Source: an uncultured Bacteroidales bacterium (lineage in GTDB: Bacteria > Bacteroidota > Bacteroidia > Bacteroidales > JAFGXI01). From it: a stretch of 51,042 nucleotides of DNA. The notes below the pieces were generated by a model. That model did not search any database and was not told where the DNA came from. It saw only the letters and a program-made list of their open reading frames with translations. Within the stretch, counting starts at the first letter, position 1. The number at the start of each line of letters is the position of its first letter. The stretch covers positions 1 through 51,042 of the forward strand of contig CAMZKE010000112.1 of the NCBI GenBank assembly GCA_947311115.1. Reading direction: 5' to 3'. This document shows positions 24,344 through 29,780 of the stretch, one piece after another. A program made the translations under genes and the position numbers.

Positions 24344-25630
24344 ATGAGTAAAAAAGTAGCATTTCAAACACTGGGTTGTAAACTAAATTTTTCGGAAACA
24401 TCAACGGTTTCAAGACTTTTTGCTAACGAAGGTTTTGAGAAAGTAGGCTTTAACGAAAAAGCTGATATTTATATTATAAATACTTGTTCGGTTACTCAAC
24501 AAGCCGAAAGTAAATGTAGAAATGCAATTAGCAGAGCTCATAGGTTATCGCCCAATGCATTTATTGCAGTTATTGGTTGTTATGCACAACTTAAACCTCA
24601 AGAAATTGTAAAACTAGAAGGTGTTGATATTGTGCTTGGAGCAAACGAAAAATTTAATCTTTTTAGGTATATAGATAATTTAAATAAAAAGAAAGTTCCT
24701 GAAATTCACTCTTGCGAAATTGATAATGTAAATGTGTTTTTACCGGCGTTTTCGTCGAACGACCGCACTCGCTCTTTTTTAAAAGTGCAAGATGGTTGCG
24801 ATTACGAATGTACATACTGCACAATACCTAAAGCACGTGGTAAAAGCAGAAACGAAACCATTAGCAAGACTATTGAAATTGCAAAGCAAGCAATAAATAG
24901 CGGTGTTAAAGAAATAATTTTAACCGGAGTAAATACAGGCGATTTTGGTAGAAGTACAAACGAAAAATTCATAGATTTAATTAAAGAGCTAGACAAATTA
25001 GACATTTCTCGTTACCGTATTTCATCAATTGAACCAAATTTATTAAGTAGCGAAATTTTAGAATTTTGCAATAAATCAACAGCATTTTTACCTCATTATC
25101 ATATTCCGTTGCAAAGTGGTAGCGACACACTACTTAAAGTTATGCAACGCCGATACAACACTAAACTTTATGCCGACAGAGTAAACGAAATAAAAAAAAT
25201 AAGCTCTAATATTGCTATTGGTGTTGATGTTATTGTAGGATTCCCTGGTGAAACCGATGAGCTTTTTGAAGAAACATACAATTTTTTAAATAATTTAGAT
25301 ATTTCTTATTTGCACGTTTTCTCGTATTCCGAACGCCCTGGAACTAAATCAATAAGCATAAAAAATAAAGTTTCACCGCAAAAAATACAAGAACGAAGCA
25401 AAAAACTTCATATTTTATCGGAAAAGAAAAAACGCTATTTCTACGAACAAAATTTAGGTAAAACTTATAATGTTCTTTTCGAGTCATCGTCAAAAGACAA
25501 AATGTATGGTTTTACTGAAAATTACATAAAAGTTGAACATAGTTTCAATTCTAATTTAATTAACAAAATTGTAAAAATAAAATTAGAGATAATTAATGAA
25601 AATGGCGATGTTTATGGTGTTTTAGTTTAA
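24344..25630 (+). CDS. mtaB: tRNA (t6A37) methylthiotransferase MtaB
   Basis: Radical SAM methylthiotransferase that converts t6A to ms2t6A at position 37 of tRNAs reading ANN codons; 428 residues. The N-terminal MTTase domain has its three cluster cysteines C12 (TLGCKLN), C48 (NTCSVT) and C79 (VIGCYAQ). The radical SAM domain has C152-xxx-C156-xx-C159 (DGCDYECTYCTIPKARG), then HIPLQSGSD, MQRRY and DVIVGFPGETDE. A short TRAM-like segment ends the protein. TLGCKLNFSE and CTIPKARGKSR are typical of MtaB rather than MiaB or RimO. It is the last core gene before the accessory island. Confidence 0.95.
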   Translation: MSKKVAFQTLGCKLNFSETSTVSRLFANEGFEKVGFNEKADIYIINTCSVTQQAESKCRNAISRAHRLSPNAFIAVIGCYAQLKPQEIVKLEGVDIVLGANEKFNLFRYIDNLNKKKVPEIHSCEIDNVNVFLPAFSSNDRTRSFLKVQDGCDYECTYCTIPKARGKSRNETISKTIEIAKQAINSGVKEIILTGVNTGDFGRSTNEKFIDLIKELDKLDISRYRISSIEPNLLSSEILEFCNKSTAFLPHYHIPLQSGSDTLLKVMQRRYNTKLYADRVNEIKKISSNIAIGVDVIVGFPGETDELFEETYNFLNNLDISYLHVFSYSERPGTKSISIKNKVSPQKIQERSKKLHILSEKKKRYFYEQNLGKTYNVLFESSSKDKMYGFTENYIKVEHSFNSNLINKIVKIKLEIINENGDVYGVLV

Positions 25631-25855
25631 TCTATTTTGCTGCACTTTATAAAATAGAAATAATTGATTTTTTATTCAAATAACAAAACCAAAATCCTTT
25701 GGCTAGTATTTATAAAAACAATACATTTGATAAAAAATCTTTATAAACGTAACAGGAGGTAAGGAGTTGTGTTTATAGACTAGTTGTAGCCAATACAGAA
25801 AATAATAGTGACAATAAACTAAAGCTTGATATAATAAGAAGGGAAAATTAGGACT

Positions 25856-26779
25856 ATGGAATTAAATGGAAAAAAAATAGCAAAGAAAAAACAAGTTGAC
25901 TATAAAACAAATAAATTAAAACTCGAAAAATCTGGTACACATGCAGGTAAAGAGTATAAGTATATTCTCGACAAAACTGATGCAAAAAAAGGTTATAATT
26001 TTTTCTGTTACAATAGTTCTGAATGGAACGAATTGCAAGATTGGGCTAATGAAAATACCGGACAAGAGAAGAAAAGAAAGATAGTAAATTTTAATGGTGA
26101 AGGTTTGCGAAATATGTTGCGTAGTGAACATATTCTGTATAATATGTTTTTCCCTTTGTCAAAATTACAAAAAACCAAACCCGAATTAGTAAAGAAATTC
26201 ATAGAAAGACTAATTCCAGACATAAAAATTAGCCAGATAAGTAAAATTAGAATTGAATACGTATCGGAATTAGATAAAAAAGAACTGTTGGATGATAATA
26301 CTTCATTTGATGCATATATTGAATACAAGTCTGGAAATAAAAAATGCGGACTGGGAATTGAATTAAAATATACTGAAAAGTCGTATCCATACGGAGAAAC
26401 CGAAGAAGAAAGATTATTTGATAAAAAATCAAAATATAACCAATTAACAAAAAACAGTGGTTATTTCAACTACGAATTTTATAAATTAAACAAACCTGAA
26501 TTAAAAAAAATAAAACAGCTTTGGCGAAATCATTTATTAGGTATTAAGCTAGTAGATATAGAAGAATTACATGAATTTCATTCTGTACATATCTACCCTA
26601 AAGGTAATAAATACCAAAAACAAGCTTGTGATAATTACATTAAGTATTTATCATTAAAAGGTAAAAATAGTTTTGTACCTGTAACTTTTGAAAGCTTTAC
26701 TTCTGTAGCGTACGATATTTTTGGTAATCAAAATTGGATAGAGTATTTAAAAAAAAGGTATCTGTTTGATAATAATTAA
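25856..26779 (+). CDS. Cassette 1 protein, PD-(D/E)XK nuclease-like
   Basis: A 307-residue soluble protein. The centre shows a probable PD-(D/E)XK nuclease core: DNTSFDAYIEYKSGNKKCGL, then GIELKYTEKSYP, giving D...ExK on adjacent strands. A later WRNHLLGIKL helix and the FHSVHIYPKGN segment resemble restriction-endonuclease-like proteins of the PGN_0703 type. A role in restriction of foreign DNA is an inference from the fold and the cassette location; no methyltransferase is beside it. The gene fills cassette 1, starting 73 bases after the cassette boundary and ending 48 bases before its attC-like site. No exact -7 element was found upstream, so it may rely on read-through. AUG start with no Shine-Dalgarno sequence. 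Confidence 0.65.
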   Translation: MELNGKKIAKKKQVDYKTNKLKLEKSGTHAGKEYKYILDKTDAKKGYNFFCYNSSEWNELQDWANENTGQEKKRKIVNFNGEGLRNMLRSEHILYNMFFPLSKLQKTKPELVKKFIERLIPDIKISQISKIRIEYVSELDKKELLDDNTSFDAYIEYKSGNKKCGLGIELKYTEKSYPYGETEEERLFDKKSKYNQLTKNSGYFNYEFYKLNKPELKKIKQLWRNHLLGIKLVDIEELHEFHSVHIYPKGNKYQKQACDNYIKYLSLKGKNSFVPVTFESFTSVAYDIFGNQNWIEYLKKRYLFDNN

Positions 26780-26827
26780 TAGAAAGATGCCAAAACAGCT
26801 CAATCTTCAGAAAGTAGAATAAAGTAC

Positions 26828-26964
26828 TGGCTACAACAAAGGCTCATAGTGCATGCCGCAAATAGCACGTATTAAGAAAGATAATTGTAAATATAAAGAT
26901 TGTGTAAACAAAGAAAAATTGTAGAAATAATGCGGCACGCACCATAGCCCCGGCCGTTGTGTGC
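26828..26964 (+). other. attC-like recombination site 1
   Basis: R'' box TGGCTACAAC (26828-26837), left arm GGCTCATAGTGCATGCCGCA (26841-26860), right arm TGCGGCACGCACCATAGCC (26931-26949), R' box GTTGTGTGC (26956-26964). The arms pair at 17 of 19 positions with one extrahelical C at 26845; the two mismatches become G-T wobbles on the bottom strand. Spacers between box and arm are 3 and 6 bases. Total 137 bases, within the known attC range. Confidence 0.7.
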
Positions 26965-27031
26965 AAGGCAGCATAAAATACAGTCATTAAAAAATTCAGA
27001 GTAATAATTCTTTAAACTAATAGAAAAAGAA

Positions 27032-27039
27032 TAATTTTG
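27032..27039 (+). promoter_or_regulatory. TAnnTTTG -7 promoter element inside cassette 2
   Basis: TAATTTTG, 13 bases before ATG 27053. It means this cassette gene brings its own promoter. Confidence 0.6.
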
Positions 27040-27052
27040 TAGTAAAAAGTAG

Positions 27053-28393
27053 ATGCAAGAAAGTCAAAATATTGAGTGGAAAGAAATTTGGAAAGATGAA
27101 TATCTGAAATGGATTTGTGGTTTTGCAAACGCAACCGGTGGAAAAATACACATTGGAAAAAATGATAAAGGCAAAATCACTGGATTATCCAACTCTAAAA
27201 AACTACTTGAAGATATACCAAACAAAATACAAAACCATCTTGGAATTTTATGTGATGTAATTTTACATAATGAAAATGAAAAGCAGTACATTGAAATAAT
27301 TATTAAACCTTACGAAGTGCCTATTTCCTATCAAGGAAAGTACTATTATCGTAGCGGTAGTACAAAACAAGAATTGAAAGGAAATGCTTTAAATGACTTT
27401 TTACTAAAAAAAGCTGGTAAAACTTGGGACGACATAATTGAGCCCAAAGCTAATATAGAAGACATTGATATAAACGCAATTGAAACCTTTAAAGAAAGTG
27501 CATTCGAGAGTAAAAGAATGCCGTACATAAAAAAAGAAAAAAATACAAATGTCATACTTGACAACCTATTACTTACAGATAACAATCAGCTTAAAAGGGC
27601 AGCAGTATTGCTATTTGGGAAAAAACCCAATAGATTTTACATTAATGCATTCATAAAAATAGGGAAATTTGGTAAAACATCTGATGAACTACATTTTCAA
27701 GAAATAATTGAAGGAAATATTTTTGAATTAGCCAATAAAACCCTTGATATTCTTGATAAAAAGTTTTTAATCGCAAAAATCTCATACGAAGGATTACATC
27801 GTGTAGAAAAATGGGAATATCCATATAAAGCAATACGAGAAACAATAATAAATGCAATAGTTCATCGAGATTATATGGGAGCACCAATTCAAATAAGTGT
27901 TTATGATGACAAAATCATTGTTTGGAATGAAGGGTATCTACCTGATGATTTGACTATTGAAGACTTAAAGAAACAACATTCTTCTCGTCCGCATAATCCA
28001 ATCTTAGCGAGTGCATTTTTTAAAGGTGGATTAATTGAGGCATGGGGACGAGGGACAGTAAAAATAATCAATGAATGTATAAAAGCAGGATTACCCGAAC
28101 CACTTATTGAAAATGTATTTGGCGGAATACAAGTTACATTATTTAGAAATAAATTAGATAAATCAAAACTTATTGAATTAGGTCTTAACAATAGACAAAT
28201 AAAAGCAATTGAGTATTTAAAAGAAAACCTAAAAATTACAAATAGTGAATATCAAAATATAAATTCAATATCAAAAGCAACTGCAACAAGAGATTTGACA
28301 GAATTATTTGATAAATTTAAACTAATTGAAAAGAAAGGGGAAACAGGAATAGGAACTTATTATAAATTGAAAGGGTTCAAAAAGGGTTCATAG
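27053..28393 (+). CDS. Cassette 2 protein, AlbA_2 (Schlafen-like) domain plus GHKL ATPase and winged helix
   Basis: A 446-residue protein of the widespread family annotated as putative transcriptional regulators. Residues about 1-115 form an AlbA_2/Schlafen-like domain (IEWKEIWKDEYLKWICGFANATGGKIHIG, YYRSGSTKQEL). The middle has a GHKL/HATPase_c_4 ATP-binding region: PYKAIRETIINAIVHRDY with the N-box asparagine, the YDDKIIVWNEGYLP G1 region and FFKGGLIEAWGRGT. The last 80 residues form a winged helix (NNRQIKAIEYLKE, SISKATATRDLTEL). Members are common in mobile and defence-related islands; the actual role is not known. The gene ends 43 bases before attC-like site 2. Confidence 0.8.
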   Translation: MQESQNIEWKEIWKDEYLKWICGFANATGGKIHIGKNDKGKITGLSNSKKLLEDIPNKIQNHLGILCDVILHNENEKQYIEIIIKPYEVPISYQGKYYYRSGSTKQELKGNALNDFLLKKAGKTWDDIIEPKANIEDIDINAIETFKESAFESKRMPYIKKEKNTNVILDNLLLTDNNQLKRAAVLLFGKKPNRFYINAFIKIGKFGKTSDELHFQEIIEGNIFELANKTLDILDKKFLIAKISYEGLHRVEKWEYPYKAIRETIINAIVHRDYMGAPIQISVYDDKIIVWNEGYLPDDLTIEDLKKQHSSRPHNPILASAFFKGGLIEAWGRGTVKIINECIKAGLPEPLIENVFGGIQVTLFRNKLDKSKLIELGLNNRQIKAIEYLKENLKITNSEYQNINSISKATATRDLTELFDKFKLIEKKGETGIGTYYKLKGFKKGS

Positions 28394-28435
28394 GGCTCAA
28401 AAAGGACTTAAACTTTTGAATAGTTAATAAACCCA

Positions 28436-28575
28436 GCACACAACATGCAATATAAAAAATTGGGCAGAAAGTGGTAAATATGAATGAATTAACAATAAAT
28501 AAACGGTGTAGTAAACTGAAAGATTGAGATTGGAGCTATAAATGCCCAACTTTTCATATCGCCAGCCGTTAAAGA
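28436..28575 (+). other. attC-like recombination site 2
   Basis: R'' box GCACACAAC (28436-28444), left arm GCAATATAAAAAATTGGGCA (28447-28466), right arm TGCCCAACTTTTCATATCGC (28543-28562), R' box GTTAAAGA (28568-28575). The arms pair at 17 of 20 positions; all three mismatches are A-C on the top strand and T-G wobble on the bottom strand. The arm sequence differs completely from site 1, as is normal between attC sites. Confidence 0.7.
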
Positions 28576-28676
28576 GAATACCTTCGGCCTTTTCTTTAAC
28601 GTAAGCTAATAAAAATTCGGGAGTTAAAAGAATAGTACAAATCCCCCACCGCACCTGAGTATTGTTCGCGTTAATG
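28568..28676 (+). other. Possible third, ORF-less cassette with degenerate attC
   Basis: GTTAAAGA (28568) has its reverse complement TCTTTAAC only 17 bases later (28593-28600), then weak arms (AACG/CGTT, AATA/TATT, GGGA/TCCC) up to GTTAATG at 28670. It could be an empty cassette or just a hairpin. Confidence 0.3.
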
Positions 28677-28809
28677 TTATAAAAATGAACGATACAAAGA
28701 TGGTAAACAGAGATTCTTATTAATAGACTTATTTCTTGTTTTAGTTGGTATTATAGGCGAATAGTAATAAAAGAGAAAAGTATATATTACAACGTAAACA
28801 AATGAATCT

Positions 28810-28830
28810 CCTCGCCGCATGCGGACGAGG
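28810..28830. repeat. GC-rich palindrome
   Basis: CCTCG, then CCGCATGCGG (a perfect palindrome), A, CGAGG. A strong hairpin with no T run; resembles a REP-type intergenic repeat. Confidence 0.5.
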
Positions 28831-28858
28831 TATCGTTTTGGAATACTATTCTTTTATA

Positions 28859-28872
28859 CGTCCCAAGGGACG
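28859..28872. repeat. Perfect hairpin CGTCCC-AA-GGGACG
   Basis: It lies 20 bases past the end of the DUF2279 gene, on its downstream side, and could help end that transcript, but there is no clear T run after it on the minus strand. Confidence 0.45.
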
Positions 28873-28892
28873 GGGAATTAAACCCAAACAGA

Positions 28893-29780
28893 TTAAAAAT
28901 ATATAGGATAAAACTTTACATTGCCTTTTGAAAACTCAGCCGTAGGCAATGGAAACTTAATTATATTTATAAAACTAAACACAGTGTTAACAAATTTACT
29001 TTTAGTTTTTATTCGTCCTAAATCGATATCTAAACTAATATAAAACTGCCTTCTTCTGGTAAAATTCAAATCACTTTCGGTAGGAATAACAGCTAAATCA
29101 TTATTTTTACCACCAACCATACCCTCAGCACCATATCCAACAGCAAAATTTAGCCAAGCCGGAAAATTATTAAAATTTGCTAAACTTTTAATATTAAACG
29201 ATAACCAATAAGTCTGTCCATTATAATCTTTTAAGAGTTGCTCTTTAAAATTACTACCGAGCAAGTCAGGTCTAATTGCAGCATAATAGGTTGTATGAAA
29301 CGAAAATTTTGGAATAATTCGTTGCTCGTTCCAAAGCAGTTGTTGAGACAAATATATAGATGCCCCAACAGCATCTGCAAACAAATCGCTTGTACTAGCC
29401 CCCCAATGCTCAGAGTAACCATCGAACAACTCAACCGACGAAACATATACCATACCAAGCAGTGTACCATAAATTGCAGATTTTTTATCGTTAAACCCAA
29501 CCCAACTAAAACCTTTACTCGAAATTTTACTTAAATAATACGAAGTATATGCGTGTCCAAATTTATCTATTTGTAACCACTCGTTGCTATCATCAAAAAA
29601 ATGAAAATTACCTGTAGAATACTCCTTATACCACAAACTATTTAACAAAATACCTGTACCTGCATATAAAGTAATATTTCCGGCAATAAAATATTTTAAC
29701 CTTTTCACATTTACACTATCTGTTTGAGCTGATGTAAATAAGAAATAAAATATTAGTATGATAGTAAAAATACGTTTCAA
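28893..29780 (-). CDS. DUF2279 family periplasmic protein
   Basis: A 295-residue exported protein of DUF2279, a family of unknown function related to the YfiM lipoproteins. The signal peptide covers about 1-18 (ending TSAQ). Family marks are LQIDKFGHAYTSYYLS and the segment SSVELFDGYSEHWGASTSDLFADAVGA with conserved acidic residues; short hydrophobic helices lie around them. The start codon is TTG at 29780: it gives MKRIFTIILIFYFLF directly, no ATG is available upstream, and a -7 element lies 23 bases away. Divergent from the gene at 29823. Confidence 0.8.
   Translation of the reverse strand: MKRIFTIILIFYFLFTSAQTDSVNVKRLKYFIAGNITLYAGTGILLNSLWYKEYSTGNFHFFDDSNEWLQIDKFGHAYTSYYLSKISSKGFSWVGFNDKKSAIYGTLLGMVYVSSVELFDGYSEHWGASTSDLFADAVGASIYLSQQLLWNEQRIIPKFSFHTTYYAAIRPDLLGSNFKEQLLKDYNGQTYWLSFNIKSLANFNNFPAWLNFAVGYGAEGMVGGKNNDLAVIPTESDLNFTRRRQFYISLDIDLGRIKTKSKFVNTVFSFINIIKFPLPTAEFSKGNVKFYPIYF

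Follow-up and report, generated by a model that had tools for sequence, protein, structure and literature searches.

The locus described here, in a 51,042-nucleotide stretch of DNA from an uncultured Bacteroidales bacterium (the window), is very probably a decayed member of an integron class that is widespread in Bacteroidia and has its own non-IntI tyrosine recombinase. The first-pass annotation of the window had proposed two integron-type cassettes, which lie at 25783-28570, and every sequence test that we made agreed with that proposal. Our reading draws on the structure of the cassettes, the fold of attC and its strand asymmetry, the position of attI, and the order, orientation, and distribution of the genes, as observed in the window and across related genomes.

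In its intact form, an integron of this class consists of a recombinase gene and, behind it in the same orientation, an attI site (consensus TATAAACGA abutting GTT) and cassettes of about 0.4-3.5 kb, most of them with one gene and each carrying one attC site (mostly ~120 nt, range 50-180 nt). If the class behaves like known integrons, the attC bottom strand would fold into a hairpin, the recombinase would join the folded attC to attI between G and TT, and cassettes would be gained at attI and lost as circles. The single bottom strand would serve as the substrate and the recombinase as the catalyst, with the strand chosen largely via conserved G.T wobbles and not via extrahelical bases. In the window, the recombinase gene appears to have shrunk to a probable 3' vestige, while attI and two cassettes remain, and an intact platform at the end of another contig of the same genome (C17) could act in trans.

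Two cassettes with matching boxes lie between chromosomal genes

The cassettes are flanked by ordinary chromosomal genes encoding an MtaB-like and a DUF2279 protein (Table 1). The earlier claim that each cassette begins with the exact reverse complement of the R'' box of its own attC site held, with the boxes in place and each unique in the window. GTTGTAGCCA occurred in the 51 kb only at 25783 and its reverse complement only at 26828, and GTTGTGTGC and its reverse complement occurred only at 26956 and 28436, respectively. Among the 26,097 window pairs of GTT and AAC spaced at the cassette-like distances of 0.7-2 kb, 92 matched in at least six of the seven positions beyond GTT/AAC, and only two, cassette 1 included, matched in all seven.

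Table 1. Features of the decayed integron locus and its flanks in the window
Feature	Position	Strand	Details
Left chromosomal flank, MtaB-like methylthiotransferase (UPF0004 + radical SAM)	24344..25630	+	Domain search
Probable vestige, 3' end of Bacteroidia-type integron recombinase gene	25651..25740	+	Similarity to C17 gene
attI-like site	25742..25785	+	Inverted repeat TATAAACGTAAC-12nt-GTTGTGTTTATA, then TATAGACTA abutting GTT; expected crossover after G25783
Cassette 1	25783..26955	+	Starts with GTTGTAGCCA; its own R'' box at 26828 is the exact reverse complement
Cassette 1 gene, 307 aa PD-(D/E)XK nuclease	25856..26779	+	PDDEXK_13 (1.3e-47) / REase-ARP (1.7e-22)
attC1 (R'' TGGCTACAAC ... 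R' GTT)	26828..26958	+	Stem ~20 bp imperfect, loop ~60 nt, one extrahelical base
Cassette 2	26956..28567	+	Starts with GTTGTGTGC; its own R'' box at 28436 is the exact reverse complement
Cassette 2 gene, 446 aa SLFN AlbA_2 + HATPase_c_4 protein	27053..28393	+	Domain search
attC2 (R'' GCACACAAC ... R' GTT)	28436..28570	+	Close kin of attC on C94, C96
Right chromosomal flank, DUF2279 protein	28893..29780	-	Domain search

Site attC1 scored 120 bits with a covariance model (R1, see below) of which it is itself one of the seed sequences, and attC2 was 85% and 79% identical to attC sites on contigs C94 and C96 of the same genome, respectively. For the cassette genes, PADLOC contained no model for the cassette 1 nuclease, and its matches to the cassette 2 protein were to parts of Argonaute-type models and were little informative. 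In the only same-genus genome, the flanking protein was 53% identical, and the contig region retrieved from that genome contained no orthologous neighborhood.

Two other features were observed downstream of the cassettes. A hairpin (GTTAAAGAGAATACC-TTCG-GCCTTTTCTTTAAC, at 28568-28604) lies in the chromosome right after attC2 and starts with the attC2 R' box. A dispersed repeat with the short palindromes CCTCGCCGCATGCGGACGAGG and CGTCCCAAGGGACG occupies 28768-28898. We found it again 5' of the C17 recombinase gene, as a 91% copy (L052:9151-9275), and on contig C20, as a 73% copy (L099:393-494). We considered this repeat as a trace of a moved platform and dropped the idea, as the weaker third copy on C20 suggests a dispersed repeat.

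Related attC sites form cassette arrays across the order

With attC1 as a DNA query, related sites turned up in several families of this order. One of them, on contig C50 of genome G045, belongs to a five-site array whose boxes match for each cassette in turn, though with decay. Searching the window's own genome for a loose GTT..AAC pattern gave only noise, and Rfam contained no attC-like family matching window-type sites. We built the covariance model R1 from eight sites, two of which were the window's own. At E < 1e-3, R1 found 15 sites in the window's genome (in the window and on contigs C94, C96, C117, C95, C155, C97, C45, and C153). The further attC sites for which the first-pass annotation had advised searching thus exist, with a total of about 15-20 in this genome in broken arrays. 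Strong R1 matches occurred in 131 of the 295 sampled genomes of the order. Since cmsearch with default filters missed true C96 sites in whole-locus searches, one of which it found in a short stretch, the R1 counts are lower bounds, and for statistics we used a geometry scanner that is independent of R1 and considers only AAC, GTT, and arm pairing. This scanner found 120 sites in 663 kb of site-rich loci, compared to 8 in the reversed control.

Cassette starts matched their own R'' boxes in at least five of seven positions in 45 of 63 adjacent same-strand pairs, versus 5.9% of mismatched pairs. A second, largely independent set from named genomes gave a match in 62 of 63 pairs, and the two sets pooled (126 neighboring pairs) matched in about 85% of cases versus about 6% expected. 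Judged from sequence, such matching is the signature of circular cassettes, and the cassettes and their attC family are established. The stems of several sites are conserved between genomes, as they would be in a dispersed palindromic repeat whose likeness to attC and placement at gene ends were accidental. However, the boxes change in concert at both ends from cassette to cassette, the stems are free to vary while the geometry stays constant, and the sites show an orientation bias of 111 to 4, leaving a chance resemblance of this kind with a vanishingly small probability. The first-pass annotation had itself named a dispersed palindrome not tied to cassettes as the alternative to its proposal, and the box-match statistics over many arrays exclude it.

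Cassette genes ran in the same direction as the cassette in 39 of 44 cases. The cargo seen included a DRT-type reverse transcriptase (RT_UG39), a PDC-S31 candidate defense protein, HEPN, peptidase S41, and a beta-lactamase-family hydrolase. The RT_UG39 (DRT) reverse transcriptase, at 658 aa, lies inside a cassette (L138:9242-11215) and is an unusually large defense-type cargo. We also observed a cassette of ~379 bp, with the start GTTATAACCA and a 79-nt attC, in several copies within one array of CP006772.1 (L130:3600-9500).

attC hairpins are more stable on the bottom strand

Each window attC forms an imperfect hairpin of about 20 pairs with an unpaired central spacer. Fold energies bore out the earlier claim that both sites fold better on the bottom strand. 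Whole-site folds of the bottom and top strands gave -17.9 versus -16.4 kcal/mol for site 1 and -10.0 versus -8.1 kcal/mol for site 2, and folds with the loops closed gave -18.0 versus -14.7 kcal/mol and -12.3 versus -8.3 kcal/mol, respectively. The extrahelical base ascribed to site 1 was present, and site 2 has none. The additional claim, that every arm mismatch becomes a bottom-strand G-T wobble, applied to most mismatches, these being A.C on the top strand. When the two sites are aligned, they share two such positions.

The same bias extended to 172 sites found with a scanner that scores A.C and G.T alike and penalizes gaps. On the top strand, 296 mismatches were A.C, of which 283 had A on the 5' arm, compared to 59 that were G.T. 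Central spacers over these sites were mostly 1-3 and 5 nt, and about 27 of the 172 sites had extrahelical bases as counted by this gap-penalizing scanner. Extrahelical bases play a key part in how the strand is chosen at known attC sites (PMC4792948). The excess of top-strand A.C mismatches suggests that wobbles may serve strand choice here, as a means other than or additional to extrahelical bases.

An attI-like site and a probable recombinase vestige precede the cassettes

In many loci, the attI consensus lies between the recombinase stop codon and the first cassette, 3' of the recombinase gene; a motif within two mismatches of it occurred in 16 of 47 loci, compared to 0.7 in shuffles. The corresponding site in the window directly precedes cassette 1, and a position weight matrix trained on attI sites of other genomes ranked 25783 fifth among 102,050 window positions.

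Upstream of this site, the window aligned over ~90 nt with the end of the C17 recombinase gene, with 76% identity to the last ~63 nt of that gene. The local score of 49 was reached by none of 1000 shuffles and none of 1351 other segments, although the best of these segments came close with 46, and we regard this short segment as a probable vestige of the recombinase gene. Gene end, attI, and cassette come in the same order here as in intact platforms, and the most plausible reading of the window is therefore an integron with a decayed recombinase gene. The intact gene lies at C17:62017-62847 and is followed, within the last 156 bp of that contig, by the cassette start GTTGTACATA. Because attC sites at the contig ends of C94 and C96 are succeeded by this same start, C17 very probably runs on into the C94/C96 arrays. 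The first-pass annotation had seen no integrase, which is correct for IntI in this genome but misses a recombinase of another kind, represented by the probable vestige with its attI-like site upstream of the cassettes and by the intact copy on C17.

A tyrosine recombinase gene lies directly upstream of arrays

In the closed genome of 'Bacteroidales bacterium CF' (CP006772.1; G227), a tyrosine recombinase gene precedes a 15-site array in the same orientation, and homologues precede arrays in genomes G090, G034, G128, G217, and many others. Since closed and long-contig genomes place these homologues directly upstream of arrays, we count the C17 gene, at first set aside as a non-IntI recombinase, among them. 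A profile (A7) built from six array recombinases had widespread strong matches, and this recombinase type occurred in 110 genomes of a 395-genome phylum sample, roughly half of which fall into the class of the window's genome. The recombinase gene was also present on two Chryseobacterium plasmids, and on one of them, the closed NZ_CP041688.1, the platform has attC sites behind it.

In the fetched loci of the order, nearly every downstream site was in the orientation of the recombinase gene. Across 80 named loci, which include Flavobacterium, Algoriphagus, Pelobium, Chitinophagaceae, and an Ignavibacteria MAG, 111 downstream sites had the same orientation and 4 the opposite, and only 6 sites lay upstream in 1.8 times more sequence. 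A site was found in 33 of the 36 named loci with at least 2.5 kb downstream of the recombinase. Recombinase and attC co-occurred across the 295 genomes of the order (70 with both, 30 with the recombinase only, 61 with attC only, and 134 with neither; odds ratio 5.1, p 3e-10). At the threshold used, attC went undetected in 30 of 100 genomes with the recombinase, and the recombinase in 61 of 131 genomes with attC, which weighs against our reading, although each search misses some true cases. Behind minus-strand recombinase genes, the contig ran on for a median of only 508 bp, compared to 35.8 kb upstream of plus-strand genes. Contigs thus end just behind the recombinase gene, as repetitive arrays would break assembly.

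Recombinases in other contexts were seen twice. In G001 (L073), a homologue is followed by an UpxY/NusG-like gene and not by attC, and some members may serve other loci; the recombinase gene of the window's own genome lies downstream of an UpxY/NusG-like gene (L052:8448-10875). In G055, a recombinase next to attC was rejected as an integrase, as it is part of an IS91-like element made up of a transposase and a tyrosine recombinase (L039:4284-6400), inserted so that its end lies inside an attC R'' box (GTTC|AAC). On plasmid NZ_CP094530.1, the platform likewise has a similar IS91 pair behind it (L340:10759-12701).

These IS91-like elements, which in this phylum carry related Y-recombinases, raise the possibility that the recombinase beside the arrays is a passenger that belongs to an IS91-type or phage-like element and takes no part in moving cassettes, as could the naming of relatives on Acinetobacter plasmids as TnpF or plain integrase. 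However, the position, orientation, and intervening attI are conserved over several orders, the array-type genes in the loci that we read have no adjacent IS91 transposase, the IS91-type copy forms a long separate branch in our tree, and phage records contained no match to the recombinase. We consider a passenger highly improbable. Instead, position, orientation, attI, and distribution strongly imply that the recombinase moves the cassettes.

Array recombinases lack the additional domain of IntI

An extra domain specific to IntI defines the integron integrase (PMC7784347, PMC9668308) and is considered necessary for binding folded single-stranded attC (PMC7784347), and its gain has been proposed to have made single-strand substrates accessible (PMC4792948). 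The array recombinases contain Phage_int_SAM_4 and Phage_integrase domains with conserved catalytic residues and are about 290-570 aa long with a variable N-terminal extension. In many of them this extension is long, with W-x-[IFV]-P type repeats and a weak HARP match (L168:70-1764, L073:757-2469), and it is absent from IntI. Against the IntI profile TIGR02249, array recombinases scored 167-215 bits (cut-off, 265), with an alignment that skipped profile positions of about 181-239. About 41 residues are missing at the site of the extra domain, 43 residues were skipped in an alignment with IntI4 (2a3v), and the KDR-to-HxLRH spacing is 58-59 residues, compared to 100 in IntI and 67 in Xer. The IntI-specific additional domain is thus absent from array recombinases.

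In our tree, 24 IntI proteins formed one clade at 100/100 with none of the 35 array recombinases inside, and four Xer proteins formed another; the tree does not join the array recombinases into one clade. The best NCBIfam family for an array recombinase was NF040815, just under its cut-off. A predicted structure (pLDDT 84, pTM 0.62, with uncertain domain placement) aligned best to archaeal Xer and IntI4 (Z 22.1, 20.0, and 19.9, with a large rmsd over both domains). Archaeal Xer proteins act on double-stranded sites of the dif type to resolve chromosome dimers and are not known to have a cassette array. By sequence and fold, they (4a8e, 5hxy) are the closest solved structures to the array recombinases.

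The intI search that the first-pass annotation had suggested gave no TIGR02249 match over the cut-off in the window's genome, in which the best match was the C17 gene beside the UpxY/NusG-like gene, below the cut-off. IntI over the cut-off was also absent from ten further genomes, at least five of which have such attC sites. Canonical IntI occurred in 5 of 295 genomes of the order, with no strong R1 site near any of these five loci, and in 105 of 395 genomes of the phylum sample, nearly all in other classes; it is nearly absent from class Bacteroidia. In an earlier survey, Bacteroidetes proper contributed one complete integron, in Salinibacter, besides In0 elements (PMC9024848).

With two attC sites and only a probable recombinase vestige, the window formally qualifies as a CALIN (at least two attC, no integrase). 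A plain CALIN would consist of ordinary IntI cassettes inserted in trans at a secondary genomic site without a platform of their own, and it would fit a genome without IntI in a phylum where IntI exists in other classes and in a few genomes of the order, all the more as CALINs are common elsewhere (PMC9668308). Yet the cassettes directly follow an attI-like site and a probable recombinase vestige, IntI is too rare in the class to explain sites in 131 of 295 genomes, and the IntI loci of the order are without a strong site while another recombinase lies directly upstream of arrays. These observations make a plain CALIN improbable.

Discussion

The system works like an integron, yet it is not canonical, as the defining domain of the integrase was tested for and is absent. 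Like the chromosomal (sedentary) IntI integrons, such as that of Vibrio cholerae IntI4/VchIntIA (PDB 2a3v), it arranges one-gene cassettes head to tail, has AAC/GTT in its R''/R' boxes and an unpaired central spacer in its bottom-strand hairpins, and has attI beside the integrase gene; its tyrosine recombinase ends in an SPLD-like motif. Unlike in those integrons, the Bacteroidia recombinase has no extra domain, many members have an extra N-terminal region, and the recombinase gene is oriented with the cassettes with attI at its 3' end. The 'reverse' integrons of Spirochaetes (PMC9668308) share an unusual orientation of intI relative to the cassettes, but their integrases are described as IntI, whereas the Bacteroidia family is without the extra domain. 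CALINs as defined in IntegronFinder (PMC9024848) resemble the window in having at least two attC sites and no IntI nearby, and a method that demands the IntI-specific domain would label the window and all arrays CALIN; unlike CALINs, the Bacteroidia arrays have their own recombinase and attI.

We propose only tentatively, at a likelihood a little short of even, that these loci form a separate Bacteroidia integron class in which an Xer-like recombinase without I2 acts on folded single-stranded attC sites with strand choice mainly through conserved G.T wobbles. We found no description of such a Bacteroidia integron in the open-access papers covered, and an earlier description elsewhere is possible.

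Standard integron searches miss the Bacteroidia system because its probable recombinase is without the defining IntI domain. If our reading is true, it helps to explain the near-lack of integrons in surveys of the phylum's main class, and bacteria from environmental and host-associated settings, as well as at least two plasmids, would carry a large uncatalogued pool of mobile genes, defense-like ones included. The extra domain would then not be essential for a cassette system, single-strand cassette recombination would either be older than the I2 domain or have arisen twice, and the origin of integrons would become directly testable.
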